64,000 nt of DNA from Micromonospora sp. M71_S20. GTDB taxonomy: Bacteria; Actinomycetota; Actinomycetes; Mycobacteriales; Micromonosporaceae. Of the stretch, positions 3,558 to 30,600 are shown in pieces (position 1 is the first letter of the stretch; each line of letters opens with the position of its first letter). Location of the stretch: NCBI RefSeq assembly GCF_003664255.1, contig NZ_RCCV01000001.1, positions 4,154,001 to 4,218,000 of the forward strand. The letters are read 5' to 3'. Made by a program: the position numbers and the translations under genes. The notes beneath the pieces are model-generated. The model did not search any database, had not been told where the DNA came from, and worked only from the letters and a program-made list of their open reading frames with translations.

Positions 3558-4181
3558 CTACTCGCCGACCACCGCACGCAGCTGCGCGCTGAGGGCCCCG
3601 GCAGCCGCCGCATCGGTACGCAACTGCTCCGACTGCTCCGACAGGTACGCCTGCCACCGGCTCAGGTGCTGCTGCGCCGCCGCCACCGCCGCGACCAACG
3701 CCACCTGTCGGCCCTCCAACTCCCGCACCTGCCGCGGCAACCCCTCGTTCCCCGCCAGGCCGGCAGCATCCCCGGCCAACACGTGCGCCTCCGCGATGAT
3801 CTCCTCGGCTTGCCGCCGCGCGTCGGCGATGATCTCCGCGCCCTCCGCGCTGGCCTCACTGATCGTCCGGTTCGCCTCGTCCTGCGCCCGCACCGCCAAC
3901 TCGATCACCATCGGGTCCGGGCCCTGCGGGGCGGTGCTGGGCAACGCGCCGTGGCGCAACATCTCCACCTGCCGCGCCAGAGCCTCGTTCTCCCGCCGCA
4001 GCCGGTCCACCTCACCACCCAGCAACGCCACCCGCTCGTCCGCTGACCGGGCCAGGTCGGCGACCTCGTCGGCCGGCAGCCACCGGCTGCCCCGGAACCG
4101 ACGCGCCTCCAGCGCGGCCACGGACCGGGTCAGCTCACCGTGCGGATCGGCGACCACCCGGTCACCGTGGTCGATGCTCAT
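3558..4181 (-). CDS. Coiled-coil (DivIVA-like) protein coupled to the globin-NOS genes
   Basis: 207 residues. The sequence contains FRGSRWLPADEVADLARSADERVALLGGEVDRLRRENEALARQVEMLR (given only in parts: ADEVADLARS, DRLRRENEALARQ) followed by a long Ala/Glu/Gln-rich helix with DEANRTISEASAEGAEIIADARRQAEEI-type repeats. This is the layout of DivIVA/Wag31-like or SepIVA-like proteins, but the N-terminal DivIVA signature is weak. No signal peptide or membrane segment. The start ATG overlaps the stop of the globin-reductase gene (ATGA, 4178-4181), so the two are probably translationally coupled. Function unknown; a cytoskeletal-type scaffold is one possibility. Confidence 0.75.
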   Translation of the reverse strand: MSIDHGDRVVADPHGELTRSVAALEARRFRGSRWLPADEVADLARSADERVALLGGEVDRLRRENEALARQVEMLRHGALPSTAPQGPDPMVIELAVRAQDEANRTISEASAEGAEIIADARRQAEEIIAEAHVLAGDAAGLAGNEGLPRQVRELEGRQVALVAAVAAAQQHLSRWQAYLSEQSEQLRTDAAAAGALSAQLRAVVGE

Positions 4182-5449
4182 CGCGCACCTGTCCAACTCA
4201 AGTCGCGCGGTGTGGCGGGAGCCGCACCGGTCCAGATCACATCGGACGGCGCGGCGGCAGCCGCGCTCGCCAGAGGTGGGTAGAGGGAGTGATCGTAACT
4301 TTCGGTCAGGATCCGCTCTGGCGTCACCCCCGCCGTGGCCAGGGCGCTGATCGTCTCCCGGGTCATCTCCGGGCTGCCGCACACCAGCACCTCGGTGTCC
4401 CGCCACGGACCCAACCGCGCCGCCGTGTGACCGGCCGTACCGATCGCACCCTGCCACTGCCAGCCGCTCTCGACCGTCGGCACGTATCGGAGCCACCCAC
4501 CGACCTCACCGGAACGCCACGACCCCGCCGGCGGCATCGCCGCCAACTCCCGCAACGCCCGGTCGTCATACAGGTCGTCGGGCGTCTTGCCGCCCACCAC
4601 CAGAGTCGTCGGACGTCCCGGTCCCCGCTGCAACGCCTCCACCACCGCCCGCAACGGCGCCAGCCCGGTGCCCCCGGCCACCAGCAGCAGCGGCAGATGC
4701 GGTGACCGGTCGTACGACGCCAACGCCTCACCCACCGGCAACCCCAACAGCAACTGGTCGCCCTCGCGCACCTTGCGCACCAGATGGGTGGAGAACCGAC
4801 CCGTGGCGCGGACGTGGAACTCGATCGTCCCGTCCGGGCGTGGCGCGTTCGCCGGTGACAGATAGCGCCACGTCCGCAACTGCGGCACCTGCACCGGCAA
4901 CGACTGCCCCGGCAGGTACTCGCACAGATAGTTCGGGCGGACCGTGAACACACACACGTCGGACCGCCGCCGCTGCACCCTCAGCACCTCCGCCTCCCAG
5001 TACGGCGGCGACGACCGCACCGCCTCCGCCGCCCCGGTCAGCATCAACCGCGCCACCAACTCGTACGCCGCGGCCCACTCCGCGCGCAGCGCCGGCGTCC
5101 ACCGTGGCCCGAGGAACCGCTCCAACGTCAACAGCAACGCCTGCCCGACCTGGCTGTAGTGCCACTCCGCCATCGGCACCGGCCGACCCTGCCGGTCCTC
5201 CCCCCGGAACCGGCGGTGGTCAGCCCCCAACCGCTGCGCGAACGACGTCACCACCCGCTCGTCGTCGATGTGGGTGATGACGTGCCCCAACGCCGCCAGC
5301 AACTTGTCCTGCTGATACTCCATGTTGGTCGGGAACATCGTGCGGACCTCGGGCGCGATCACGAACAACGTCGCGTAGAAGTGCTTCGCCGCCTCCGGAC
5401 CGGCCACGCAGAACTGGGCCCAACTCTGGCGTAACGCCGCGACATCCAT
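4178..5449 (-). CDS. Globin-FAD/NAD reductase (flavohemoglobin-like), NOS partner
   Basis: 423 residues. N-terminal single-domain globin (about 1-145) with B10 Tyr25 in HFYATLF, Gln46 at the likely E7 position and proximal His78 in ADHRRF. It is followed by a ferredoxin-reductase domain: RYLS (195-198) at the FAD-binding R-x-Y-S position, GGTGLAP (259-265) for NAD(P)H, and CGSPEM near the C-terminus. The layout is that of Hmp-type NO dioxygenases, though the RxYS motif is altered in spacing and the C-terminal tail (DLSWTGAR) is not the usual one. It lies 3 bases after the NOS gene. It may oxidise NO to nitrate, feed electrons to NOS, or both; this role is inferred from position. Confidence 0.9.
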   Translation of the reverse strand: MDVAALRQSWAQFCVAGPEAAKHFYATLFVIAPEVRTMFPTNMEYQQDKLLAALGHVITHIDDERVVTSFAQRLGADHRRFRGEDRQGRPVPMAEWHYSQVGQALLLTLERFLGPRWTPALRAEWAAAYELVARLMLTGAAEAVRSSPPYWEAEVLRVQRRRSDVCVFTVRPNYLCEYLPGQSLPVQVPQLRTWRYLSPANAPRPDGTIEFHVRATGRFSTHLVRKVREGDQLLLGLPVGEALASYDRSPHLPLLLVAGGTGLAPLRAVVEALQRGPGRPTTLVVGGKTPDDLYDDRALRELAAMPPAGSWRSGEVGGWLRYVPTVESGWQWQGAIGTAGHTAARLGPWRDTEVLVCGSPEMTRETISALATAGVTPERILTESYDHSLYPPLASAAAAAPSDVIWTGAAPATPRDLSWTGAR

Positions 5450-5452
5450 GCC

Positions 5453-6721
5453 TCAGCCCTCCTGCCGGCGAGCGACGTCATGACGCTGCCGCAGGGTCGA
5501 CTGCAACACGCCCGACGGCCCGTACGCACGGTCCGCCTGCCACAGGTTCGGGTTCGGGATCCTCTCGTCGTAGTAGCGGTGGTGCACGGCATGCAACGCC
5601 GCCCACCCCACACTGCCGTTGAGCCACGACCAGTCACCATGCACCGGCCGACCCGCCCGCTCCTCGAACTCGCAGAACCTCATGAACTGCTCCGACTCGG
5701 TGTGCGGATCCGACACCCGCACACCGGCCAACCGGAACGAGTGCAACACCGCCTGATTGATCACCAGCACGGCGTGCTCGCGCCACAAGTTGTCCTCACG
5801 GGAGGTGTCCAACCCCAGCCCCCGGGCCACCGGCAGCAACTGGTCGTAGCGGCTCCGGTCCCCCATGTTGCGCGTACCGATCTCGTCACTCAGATAGTGA
5901 CCGTTGAAGGGAGCACAGCTGTAGTCCACCCCACCGATCCGCAAGCGCATGTTGCTGATCACCGGCAGGGCATGCCAACGCAGCCGCAAATCCTCGAACC
6001 ACGGATACTCCGGATGCACCAGGGCGACCTCCCGAACGAGGTCCCGGGACACCTCCACCACCGTCGGGTCCTCGTACGCCGTCTCGATCACCCATGGCAA
6101 CAGGTCGAACCGGCCCGGTACCACCGGCGGACGCCACCCCAGACGCCGCGCCGCATCGGTCATCGCCACCTGCGCCGGATCACCCCGCACCGACCCGTCG
6201 TCCGTCCGATGCCCGCAGTACCGGATCAACTGGTCGTTCCAGATCCGCGCCCGCGGCCCCACCCCCGGCCGGTCGGGCGCGAACACGGTCATCACCGACT
6301 GGATCCGCCCCCCGTTGTCCGCCACCGCCAGGTGCTGCGCCAACTCCTGCGAGATGCCCGCCACCGTCGTCACCCCGCGCCGGTCACGGACCTTCAGCCC
6401 TGCCCACCGGACCCGCCCCACGCAACGCACCGACTGCCGCCAGGCGACCTTCGCCCCGTACGCCAACTCCTCCGTGGTGTGCCGGTACGTGCCGGTCAGC
6501 GCGATCTCCTCCCGGACCTCCGCGATCCGTCCGATCAGGCCCGGCAGCCGTCGCTCCGCGTGATAGAGCTGCAAGAACTCGACGGCCTCCGCCGCGACGT
6601 CCTCCACCAGGGGATCCTGTGTCCGGGAGGCATGAGCCACCGGACAGCCCGACGCGTTGCCGTCCGCGGCACGCTCACTGGCATCCAAGATCATTGCGTT
6701 GACGTGATAGTCAGTCTGCAC
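5453..6721 (-). CDS. Divergent bacterial nitric oxide synthase oxygenase
   Basis: 422 residues, longer than the roughly 360 of Bacillus NOS because of a 40-residue N-terminal extension. The heme-ligand block reads AWRQSVRCVGR (Cys100, with Trp94). WNDQLIRYCG, VISNMRLRIGG, APFNG, DEIGTRN (Glu280, matching the Glu that binds the arginine guanidinium) and GDWSWL align well with known NOS oxygenases. Unusual points: the tryptophan after APFNG is His275, MGT before the Glu is LSD, and the IPP and TPVFH segments of the pterin/dimer region are replaced. Start taken at the first ATG; a second ATG at codon 10 is possible. Operon with the globin reductase. Confidence 0.9.
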   Translation of the reverse strand: MQTDYHVNAMILDASERAADGNASGCPVAHASRTQDPLVEDVAAEAVEFLQLYHAERRLPGLIGRIAEVREEIALTGTYRHTTEELAYGAKVAWRQSVRCVGRVRWAGLKVRDRRGVTTVAGISQELAQHLAVADNGGRIQSVMTVFAPDRPGVGPRARIWNDQLIRYCGHRTDDGSVRGDPAQVAMTDAARRLGWRPPVVPGRFDLLPWVIETAYEDPTVVEVSRDLVREVALVHPEYPWFEDLRLRWHALPVISNMRLRIGGVDYSCAPFNGHYLSDEIGTRNMGDRSRYDQLLPVARGLGLDTSREDNLWREHAVLVINQAVLHSFRLAGVRVSDPHTESEQFMRFCEFEERAGRPVHGDWSWLNGSVGWAALHAVHHRYYDERIPNPNLWQADRAYGPSGVLQSTLRQRHDVARRQEG

Positions 6722-7006
6722 TCTCGTTCAAATCCGATCGTCGGGCCGGCGTCACCGCCGCCTTCTGCGTCGTCCCGTACAGGTTCGCCGAACCGACACG
6801 GCACATCACGAACGGTGATATGCGCCCGAAGGCCGCGAACGCCGCACACAGGATTCACGGCGACGCAATGACTGTCAACAAGGCGACTCCTGCCCAAGGT
6901 GTCCACAGTCGGCATTTGCCCACAGGCGGACCACATTGGACATCACGGCGGCGGCTCCTGGCCCTCCCGGAACACCACCGAAGGGCACCCGGCCAGCCGC
7001 CGGAGA

Positions 7007-27681: not shown

Positions 27682-30600
27682 CGCGGCCCTCCCCGGCGCC
27701 GTCGGCGGGAGCCGGCGGGGGAACCGCCCCCGGGGTGAGCGTCGGGGCCGGGTGGCCGGGGACGATGCCCGCCCGCCGCTGGTAGTCCGCCACCAGGTCC
27801 AGCAGGGCCGGGCCGGTGGGCCGCCGACCGGGCCGCACGTCACAGGTACCGATCTTGCTCTCCTGGATCAGCACGTTGGGGTCCAGGGTGATCCCGAACA
27901 GGTCGTTGGCCGAGTCGCCGGTCACCAGGCCCTCGAACCCGAAGTGGTACGGCAGCCACACCTGGTGGATCACCCGACCGTCCACGCGCAGCGGGCTGAG
28001 CCGGTCGGTGACCAGCACCTTCGCCTCGATGACCGCCCGCCCGCTGACCAGGTGCGCCCAGCCCAGGTGCGCCAGGTCCGCCTCCGCGGCCAACTCCGGG
28101 GACACCTCGACGAACATCTCCGGTTGCAGCTCCGCCAGGGGCCGCACCGTACGGCTCATCCCGCCCGCCGTGTGGTGCTCGGTGAGCCGGCTGACCGTGA
28201 ACACGTACGGGAAGACCTGACTGTGCTCCTGCGGCGGGCTCGGGTTCACCGAGTTCACCGGGTGCGCGTACACCTTGCGGGTCGGATTGGCCTGCTGCCG
28301 GTAGAACGGGTTGCGCACCGGCGACTCGGCCGGCTCGTAGTGCGTCGGCAGCGGGCCGTCCAACACGCCGCTGGGCGCGTACAGCCAGCCCTTGCCGTCG
28401 CCCTGCATGACGAACGGGTCGTCGCCGGCGATCCCCTCCGGGCCAGACGCGCCCTCCGGCGGCCGGTACGTCGGCGGCTTGGTCCGCTCGAAGTCCGGCA
28501 CGTCGTAGCCGGTCCACTCCCCGGCGTCCGGGTCCCACCAGACGTAGCGCTTGCGTTCGCTCCACGGCCGGCCCTGCGGGTCCGCCGAGGCCCGGTTGTA
28601 CAGGGTGCGCCGGTTCGCCGGCCACGCCCAGCCCCACTCGGCGGCCACCCAGTCCTGCTCGTGGCGCGACCTGCGCCGCGCCGCCTGGTTGACGCCGCCG
28701 GCGTACACCCCGGAGTAGATCCAGCAGCCGACGGCGGTGGAGCCGTCGTCGCGGGCCTCGGCGAACGCGGACAGCGGGCGGCCGGTCGCCACCTCGTAGC
28801 CGTTGATCTCGCGCAGCACCGCCTCGGCGCTCGGCTCGGCGTGCGGGCCGTGCGTGGGATAGTCCCAGGCCAGGTCGAGCAGCGCCCGGTCGCGCGGCAG
28901 GTCGGAGCCGGCCAGCTTCTCCCGCAGCCGGCGCCCGAGATGGTAGAAGAACCACAGCTCGGAGCGGGCGTCGCCCGGCGGGTCGACGGCCTTCTCCCGC
29001 CACTGCAGCAGCCGCTGGGTCTGGGTGAAGGTGCCCTCCTTCTCCACGTGCGAGGCGGCCGGCAGGAAGAACACCTCCGTCTTGCACTGCTCCGGCACGA
29101 TCTCGCCGGTGGCGACCTCGGGACTGTTGCGCCAGAACGTGGCGCTCTCGATCATGAACAGATCGCGGACCACCAGCCAGTCCAGGTTCGCCATGCCCAG
29201 GCGCTGCGCCCGGCCGTGCGCCGAGCCGACCGCCGGGTTCTGGCCGAGCAGGAAGTAGCCCCGCACCTTCCCGTCGATCATGTTCAGCACCTGCTGGTAC
29301 GTCCCGTGGTCGCCGGTCATCCGGGGCATGTACCCGTAGCAGAAGTCGTTCTCGGGCGTCGCCGCGTCGCCCCAGTACGCCTTGAGCAGGCTCGCCGCGT
29401 AGGCGCGGGCGTTGCCCCAGAAGCCCTTCTGGCCCGGGTGGCGGATGCTGTCCACCCACTCGTCGAAGGTGGGGTGGTCGGCGTGGTGCGGCATCGGCAG
29501 GTAGCCGGGGAGCAGGTTGAACAGCGTCGGGATGTCAGTGGAGCCCTGGATGCTGGCGTGCCCGCGCAGCGCCAGGATGCCCCCGCCGGGGCGGCCCATG
29601 TTGCCCAGCAGCAGCTGGATGATCGCGCCGGTACGGATGTACTGCACGCCGACGCTGTGCTGCGTCCACCCCACGGAGTAGATCAGCACGCCGGTGCGCT
29701 CCCGACCCGAGTTCTGCGTCCAGGCCCGCGCCAGCTCCAGGAACTTCTCCCGGGGGATGCCGCAGACCCGCTCCACCATCTCCGGGGTGTAGCGGGCGAA
29801 GTGCCGCCTGAGGATCTGGTAGACGCAGCGCGGGTGCTGCAACGACTCGTCCCGCTCGACCTGCCCGCCCACCTCGGCGCCGTGCGACTCGTGGCGCAGC
29901 CCGGCGGCGGTGTCCCGCTCCTTCGCGGTGTGCCCGCTGCCGGAGTCGGACTCGTGGCCCGCGTACTGCCAGGAGTCCTGGACGTAGCTGCCCGTCTCCG
30001 GGTCGAACCCCGAGAAGAAGCCGTCGCCGTCCTCGGTGTCGACGAAGCGCTCGCTGACGATCGTCGCGGCGTTGGTGTACGCCAGCACGTACTCCCGGAA
30101 GTCCAGCTCGTTCTCCAGGATGTAGCGCACCACGCCACCGAGCAGCGCGATGTCGGAGCCCGCACGGATCGGCAGGTACGTGTCGGCCACCGCGCTGGTA
30201 CGGGTGAACCGCGGATCGACGTGGAACACCTTGGCGCCGCGCCGCTTGGCCTCCATCACCCACTGGAAGCCCACCGGGTGGGCCTCGGCCATGTTCGAGC
30301 CCTGGATGACGATGACGTCAGCGTTGGCGACGTCCTGCTGGAAGTCCGTCGCGCCACCGCGACCGAAGCTGGCCCCCAGACCGGGGACGGTGGCGGAGTG
30401 TCAAATGCGCGCCTGGTTCTCGATCTGGAGCGCCCCCATCGCCGTGAACAGCTTCTTGATGAGGTAGTTCTCCTCGTTGTCGAGCGTCGCCCCGCCCAGG
30501 CTGGAGATGCCGAGCGTGCGGTTGAGCGGCCGGCCCTGCGCGTCGACGTCCTCCCAGGTCTCCGCGCGCGCTGCGAGGATCCGGTCGGCGATCATGTCGA

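Follow-up and report, generated by a model that had tools for sequence, protein, structure and literature searches.

The window analyzed here, a 64,000-nucleotide (nt) stretch of the Micromonospora sp. M71_S20 genome (contig NZ_RCCV01000001.1, positions 4,154,001 to 4,218,000), carries on its minus strand a set of three genes encoding a nitric oxide (NO) synthase (NOS), a globin-FAD-NAD(P) reductase (GR), and a coiled-coil protein (CC), transcribed in that order. The NOS oxygenase gene (6721-5453; GTG start, 422 amino acids [aa]) was assigned from the open reading frame (ORF) call and PF02898 and is of a divergent type, referred to as N-loop. It is followed by the gene for GR, a flavohemoglobin-like protein of 423 aa (5449-4178; ATG start; PF00042, PF00970, and PF00175), and by the gene for CC, a DivIVA-like protein of 207 aa (4181-3558). 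The initial annotation had described a two-gene unit, with the globin-FAD-NAD(P) reductase following the NOS gene after 3 bases; the ORFs, the 3-nt gap (bases 5450-5452), and the Pfam domains all agree with this, but the third gene was overlooked. The operon contains no biosynthetic enzymes and is surrounded by housekeeping-type genes (gcvH, FHA, MerR, and SIR2).

The three genes are closely linked and translationally coupled. The NOS-GR gap was 2-4 nt at all eight loci measured (the window and seven relatives), and the overlap of 4 nt between the ATG of CC and the stop codon of GR (ATGA, 4178-4181 in the window) was the same in seven of them. At the eighth (L037, identical to L061; Micromonospora sp. 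CB01531), GR and CC are separated by a transposase gene, recognized by eye as TnpB/IS605-like (L037 5872-7158). A read-through fusion of NOS and GR via in-frame spacing was rejected because the length of the gap varies. Upstream of NOS, a likely −35 box (TTGACA, 6873-6878, minus strand) and a possible operator between promoter and NOS start, the inverted repeat TCAC-N5-GTGA (6806-6818), were conserved as GTTGACA in 14/14 and as the repeat in 12/14 aligned upstream regions, these being close relatives counted without a shuffle control. The trio is therefore probably transcribed from a promoter of its own, perhaps with an operator.

Conservation of the set was assessed from 164 NOS genes; these are not a random sample, so the counts are not frequencies. 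Sampling was even for the class and family sets, whereas ten single-domain-globin loci, the top order-level matches (20 places), and a plasmid record were picked on purpose, and gene calls outside annotated records were made by ORF and codon composition. When all fetched loci were classified together, GR lay downstream on the same strand in 27/27 distinct NOS genes of the window type, including two loci whose contigs stop inside GR and one (L182, same strain as L066) in which GR is fragmented in the draft assembly. CC followed GR in 25/25 loci with enough sequence. Within the family, NOS was present in 100/200 sampled genomes, the window's genus containing a distinct low-scoring group, and GR orthologues (68-78% identity) were found in exactly those genomes of the low-scoring group that have a full NOS, adjoining it. 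Over the whole genus, 43/160 genomes carried NOS; in one (G144, L035), only a NOS fragment is left at the same place, and GR and CC are gone. A scan of named genomes returned 17 loci, of which 15 have a true GR, with NOS in front in 15/15 and CC behind in the 13/13 whose contig continues; the other two are unrelated globins. The named holders of the trio are Micromonospora and Salinispora, to which protein searches add Plantactinospora and another member of the Micromonosporaceae, and the 85 CC homologues, as far as they are named, come from these same taxa. The pairing of NOS and GR is thus beyond chance: it is tight and conserved, and it belongs to an operon of three genes. Between one and seven GR homologues were counted in genomes that have any, so chance closeness of one to NOS should be rare.

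The upstream neighbors of the window (MerR and beyond) were found at 12/15 named loci. At L061 (CB01531) and two Salinispora loci the upstream neighbors are others and the NOS-GR-CC order is intact, so the trio moves as a unit. The Salinispora trio lies beside lipA and glnA (recognized by eye), and the third-position G+C of its NOS and GR genes is 0.70-0.75 versus 0.80-0.93 in most neighboring gene calls, which fits acquisition.

The most telling new fact is that a truncated hemoglobin (trHb) has given way to NOS at one locus. At seven Micromonospora loci, NOS-less or otherwise NOS-carrying, the same flanks (gcvH, FHA, and two MerR genes to one side and SIR2 to the other) surround a GR homologue 40-45% identical to that of the window, followed by a CC-like gene (31-39% across the matched portion) and preceded by a short gene. 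This short gene was identified as trHb, PF01152 scoring above the cut-off in 3/3 tested. Of 20 loci with a GR homologue across the family, 13 have trHb immediately upstream and 14 have a DivIVA-like gene downstream; a second set, fetched through MerR, gave trHb-GR in 8/8 (three genomes shared with the first set). The hidden Markov models (HMMs) used for the trHb and DivIVA-like genes, and those for the dioxygenase-like and aminotransferase genes described below, were built partly from loci that were later matched. One genome (G150) holds both arrangements, with the trHb operon at the original site and the NOS trio at a different one, and the only PF01152 hemoglobin in the window's genome is on another contig. 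In the GR tree, the trio GR and the resident Micromonospora GR form separate clades (100/100 each), so the trio replaced the resident operon and did not arise from it; the nearest relatives of the trio GR are encoded on a Micromonospora zamorensis plasmid and in one other genome (94/89). On this ground the simple gain of NOS in front of a local Micromonospora GR was rejected, and an exchange of operons fits better. The initial annotation had tied GR to NOS. This stands insofar as GR adjoins every window-type NOS found, but homologues lie behind trHb at the same locus in NOS-less relatives. Since these relatives carry trHb-GR-DivIVA at this site, GR is not NOS specific; it also occurs without NOS, beside another NO-reactive heme protein, and the member swapped is the heme protein in front of it. 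No description of the trHb-GR-DivIVA-like operon of NOS-less Micromonosporaceae (L146-L163, L234-L241) was found in one search of the open-access literature.

The NOS of the window scored 415 bits (E = 2.6e-124) against PF02898 (NO_synthase), and its closest relatives with a solved structure are bacterial NOS. It shares with the bacterial type I enzymes of Bacillus and Geobacillus not only this domain but also the heme Cys and the substrate Glu, by which bacterial NOS is recognized. It differs from them in the pterin-site loop and in Trp and Phe positions. The loop reads DWSWLNGSVGW in place of DWSW(I/L)VPPxS, and the DWSW-x-x-PP loop with NGW that is expected of bacterial NOS was altered in 18/18 trio-type rows. 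Compared with 100 other sampled NOS, these 18 distinct rows differ at near-invariant sites: W275 to H, H339 to P, V-P-P 368-370 to N-G-S, Y105 to R, and F380 to H, where P369 is found in 98/100 and P370 in 99/100 of the others. The stretch 364-380 and W366 are part of the pterin site. The heme ligand Cys100 and residues Gln164, Tyr276, and Glu280 were invariant in 8/8 trio-type NOS. Among the best 120 of 2078 protein matches, the top 53 (P0047-P0099) all carry NGSVGW, and the next 67 comprise 59 with other N-loops and 8 with the usual VPP. In an 86-row tree, all N-loop NOS including the trio formed one group (SH-aLRT 99) with the trio nested inside (100); both NOS trees were quick searches supported by SH-aLRT only, and the other one, which gave the single-domain-globin clade described below, was flagged where the trio branch meets another long branch (L071). 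The N-loop class was not found named in the open-access literature searched. A further NOS match, shorter than the first and ending before the C-terminal pterin-site part, is present in several genomes of one family in the order (L217 and similar; query ~26-340 only).

For GR, the Globin, FAD_binding_6, and NAD_binding_1 domains each scored above the Pfam cut-off, and no flavodoxin/FMN domain or Fe-S carrier was found in the Pfam scan, leaving a single FAD/NAD(P) module. This domain order and the heme-pocket residues are shared with Hmp, and Hmp-type structures were the best matches: the AlphaFold model (pLDDT 83.4, pTM 0.76) returned flavohemoglobins as the top PDB hits. Tyr25, Gln46, His78, Tyr98, and Glu142, which correspond to B10, E7, F8, G5, and H23 of the flavohemoglobin heme-pocket set, were intact in 8/8. 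A fused NOS+globin+FAD_binding_6 protein was absent among 46 matches (8000 candidates scored), the self-sufficient NOS fusions seen carrying flavodoxin or BFD/other modules instead, and viral contigs gave one pattern match to GR and no relative. CC gave no Pfam family at the default limit and scored only 10.4 bits against PF05103 (DivIVA; cut-off 28), so that its assignment as a clear DivIVA is unsupported by Pfam for the window protein; the three homologues tested from this locus in NOS-less relatives scored 32.2, 30.8, and 25.5, two of them passing. CC was predicted as four helices (mean pLDDT 77.1, pTM 0.29), and a PDB profile search with it returned nothing meaningful. A scaffold role for CC is a guess prompted by its DivIVA-like kin.

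The check proposed in the initial annotation, a search of Micromonosporaceae genomes for the pair, gave a positive result for the window type. Among NOS genes of other types, 122/137 had no globin domain within 5 kb and 15/137 had one; for the PP-loop NOS, 86/99 were without a globin gene within 5 kb, noting that flanks were short in 23/164 NOS loci (22 PP-loop, 1 N-loop). A canonical NOS with an adjoining GR as a general rule was thereby rejected. Linkage of a globin to NOS is nevertheless seen again in further NOS clades, where it takes five layouts different from that of the trio. Ten NOS genes with a convergent single-domain globin all belong to one NOS clade (SH-aLRT 99), two loci (L072, L218) have a divergent flavohemoglobin-like gene beside NOS, one (L204) has a gene of this kind upstream in the same orientation, and two N-loop NOS have a nearby globin, downstream on the same strand in L198 and convergent in L202. 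The single-domain globins stand tail to tail with a NOS paralogue clade of other Micromonosporaceae (L125-L130, L132-L135) in 10/10 cases, with 16-107 nt between the matched domains. A second N-loop type (NSYPM motif, L188-L197) has tryptophan dioxygenase (TDO)-like and kynureninase-like aminotransferase genes within 5 kb at 10/10 Micromonospora loci, abutting NOS in nine of the ten. On the Micromonospora zamorensis plasmid (L198, NZ_CP107937.1), NOS-GR is followed by the same TDO-like and kynureninase-like gene types. The NSYPM-type neighborhood is possibly a tryptophan-derived biosynthetic cluster that uses NO.

From these data the trio is proposed to be a three-gene NO-handling operon, a reading to which we assign a probability of about 50%. 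NOS would form NO from arginine, and GR, acting as a flavohemoglobin-like NO dioxygenase with NAD(P)H and O2, would convert the NOS-made NO to nitrate, so that little free NO would escape; CC would probably assemble or place the NOS-GR pair. The operon would correspond to the older trHb-GR-DivIVA operon, with NOS standing in the place of trHb. The heme-pocket residues of GR together with its structural matches to flavohemoglobins make NO dioxygenation of NOS-made NO the simplest role, and GR probably burns NO. The presence of NOS and GR in one operon, with trHb at the same spot in relatives, suggests that a single coupled unit both produces and consumes NO. GR seems local to NOS rather than general, given that a full-length Hmp-like protein (376.7 bits) and one more globin reductase are encoded in the same genome. 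The nitrate could be reused by a nitrate/nitrite-assimilation-like locus of the host, on contig 2, where a molybdopterin oxidoreductase adjoins NirB (1058 bits) and a NirB-like piece falls within the same 6 kb.

Several observations weigh against this proposal. GR differs from Hmp in scoring far below the cut-off of the flavohemoprotein equivalog NF009805 (78.8 versus 432 bits), in having an extra loop at about residues 82-93 and a conserved C-terminal tail, and in carrying RYLS in 8/8 at the FAD-motif site, where most FAD domains of this kind carry RxYS. The two domains of the GR model failed joint superposition on flavohemoglobins (rmsd of 18-20 Å). With an Hmp-like protein and a second globin reductase encoded elsewhere, GR is dispensable for general NO detoxification. 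The nitrate reductase was assigned by PF00384 only. NO formation by the trio NOS itself is not certain, given its altered pterin-site loop and W/F positions. A bolder version, in which the N-loop NOS constitute an unrecognized class without the usual pterin chemistry, driven by a dedicated GR that also makes nitrate, such that the exchange of trHb for NOS created a modular arginine-to-nitrate machine, is considered quite improbable.

The alternative that survives best, although we regard it as doubtful, is that GR serves as the dedicated electron donor of the heme protein encoded before it, trHb ancestrally and NOS here, its globin being a bridge or a side activity. GR may also, as the initial annotation suggested, act at once as electron donor to NOS and as NO dioxygenase. 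This would account for the conserved position of GR while the heme partner was swapped, and for the rebuilt surface and pterin loop of NOS. Passages of PMC3820574, which also treats hemoglobin as an NO dioxygenase, suggest that FNR-like proteins could supply electrons to truncated and single-domain globins. Bacterial NOS is described as promiscuous, taking electrons from available reductases, so that a reductase linked to it would stand out (in part of PMC10580903, on S. aureus nos regulation, where single-domain NOS are thought to use any reductase at hand; Gusarov 2008 as cited in a section of the bacterial NO review PMC9500659). Several points oppose the donor role. GR contains neither an FMN nor an Fe-S one-electron carrier, self-sufficient NOS fusions were found with flavodoxin or BFD/other modules, and none of the 46 matches (8000 candidates scored) joined NOS to globin and FAD_binding_6. 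In addition, many PP-loop NOS have no globin gene within 5 kb, and GR has a history with trHb.

It is unlikely, in our view, that the divergent NOS hydroxylates arginine or another guanidine and no longer makes NO, the linkage to GR being a remnant of the ancestral globin operon. The replacements in the trio clade (W275 to H, the PP loop to NG(S), and F380 to H) would be in keeping with such a loss; they are countered by the invariant Cys100, Gln164, Tyr276, and Glu280, by the strong conservation of the clade, and by the trio having been kept together after transfer. Least probable is a supply of NO to biosynthetic nitration or N-N bond formation, with oxy-globin chemistry replacing the nitrating P450, because the NSYPM-type and plasmid neighborhoods and the use of NOS genes by actinobacterial nitration clusters (described in part of PMC10831120) are offset by the absence of GR from the ten TDO-linked loci and by the housekeeping surroundings of the window trio.

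Returning to the NO-handling operon, the closest known system is SyNOS of Synechococcus PCC 7335, a globin-NOS with a diflavin reductase like that of mammalian NOS, for which an arginine-to-nitrate route was proposed (sections of PMC6104048 and PMC12922734; PDB 9q05; globin-NOS are also the subject of an opinion article, PMC7554344). The trio likewise combines a NOS oxygenase with an FAD/NAD(P) module and with a globin that could act as an NO dioxygenase. It differs in comprising two to three separate proteins, with a stop and a start between ORFs, rather than a single polypeptide; in joining the FAD module to the globin instead of NOS; and in having a NOS from a different clade and an added DivIVA-like protein. 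The claim of the initial annotation that the same three activities occur as in the cyanobacterial enzyme was not sustained, as GR has one FAD/NAD(P) module without FMN where SyNOS has a diflavin reductase. The trio is therefore a new variant of NOS-globin coupling and not SyNOS split in two. The trHb-GR-DivIVA operon is alike in its locus in Micromonospora and its homologous second and third genes, and differs in its first gene, Bac_globin instead of NOS, and in its GR, which is only 40-45% identical. The initial annotation knew of no two-gene version, and literature searches on the NOS-GR pair (globin, flavohemoglobin, Micromonospora, DivIVA, and tryptophan dioxygenase), with mostly open-access coverage, likewise found none; "globin" occurs 0 times in the main text of a paper on NOS-guided genome mining (PMC10831120).

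The stable linkage of one NOS lineage to one globin reductase means that two small proteins would suffice to test whether NOS has a dedicated partner. A natural swap experiment is also offered by the locus itself, in which the same site and the same downstream gene types have either an NO consumer (trHb) or a producer (NOS) in front, and the changed pterin loop raises the question of how far NOS chemistry can drift. Elsewhere in the window, a PF00384 molybdopterin match was found at about 28937-30502 (G000:C1:4182937-4184502), in a frame with one TGA within the matched stretch.

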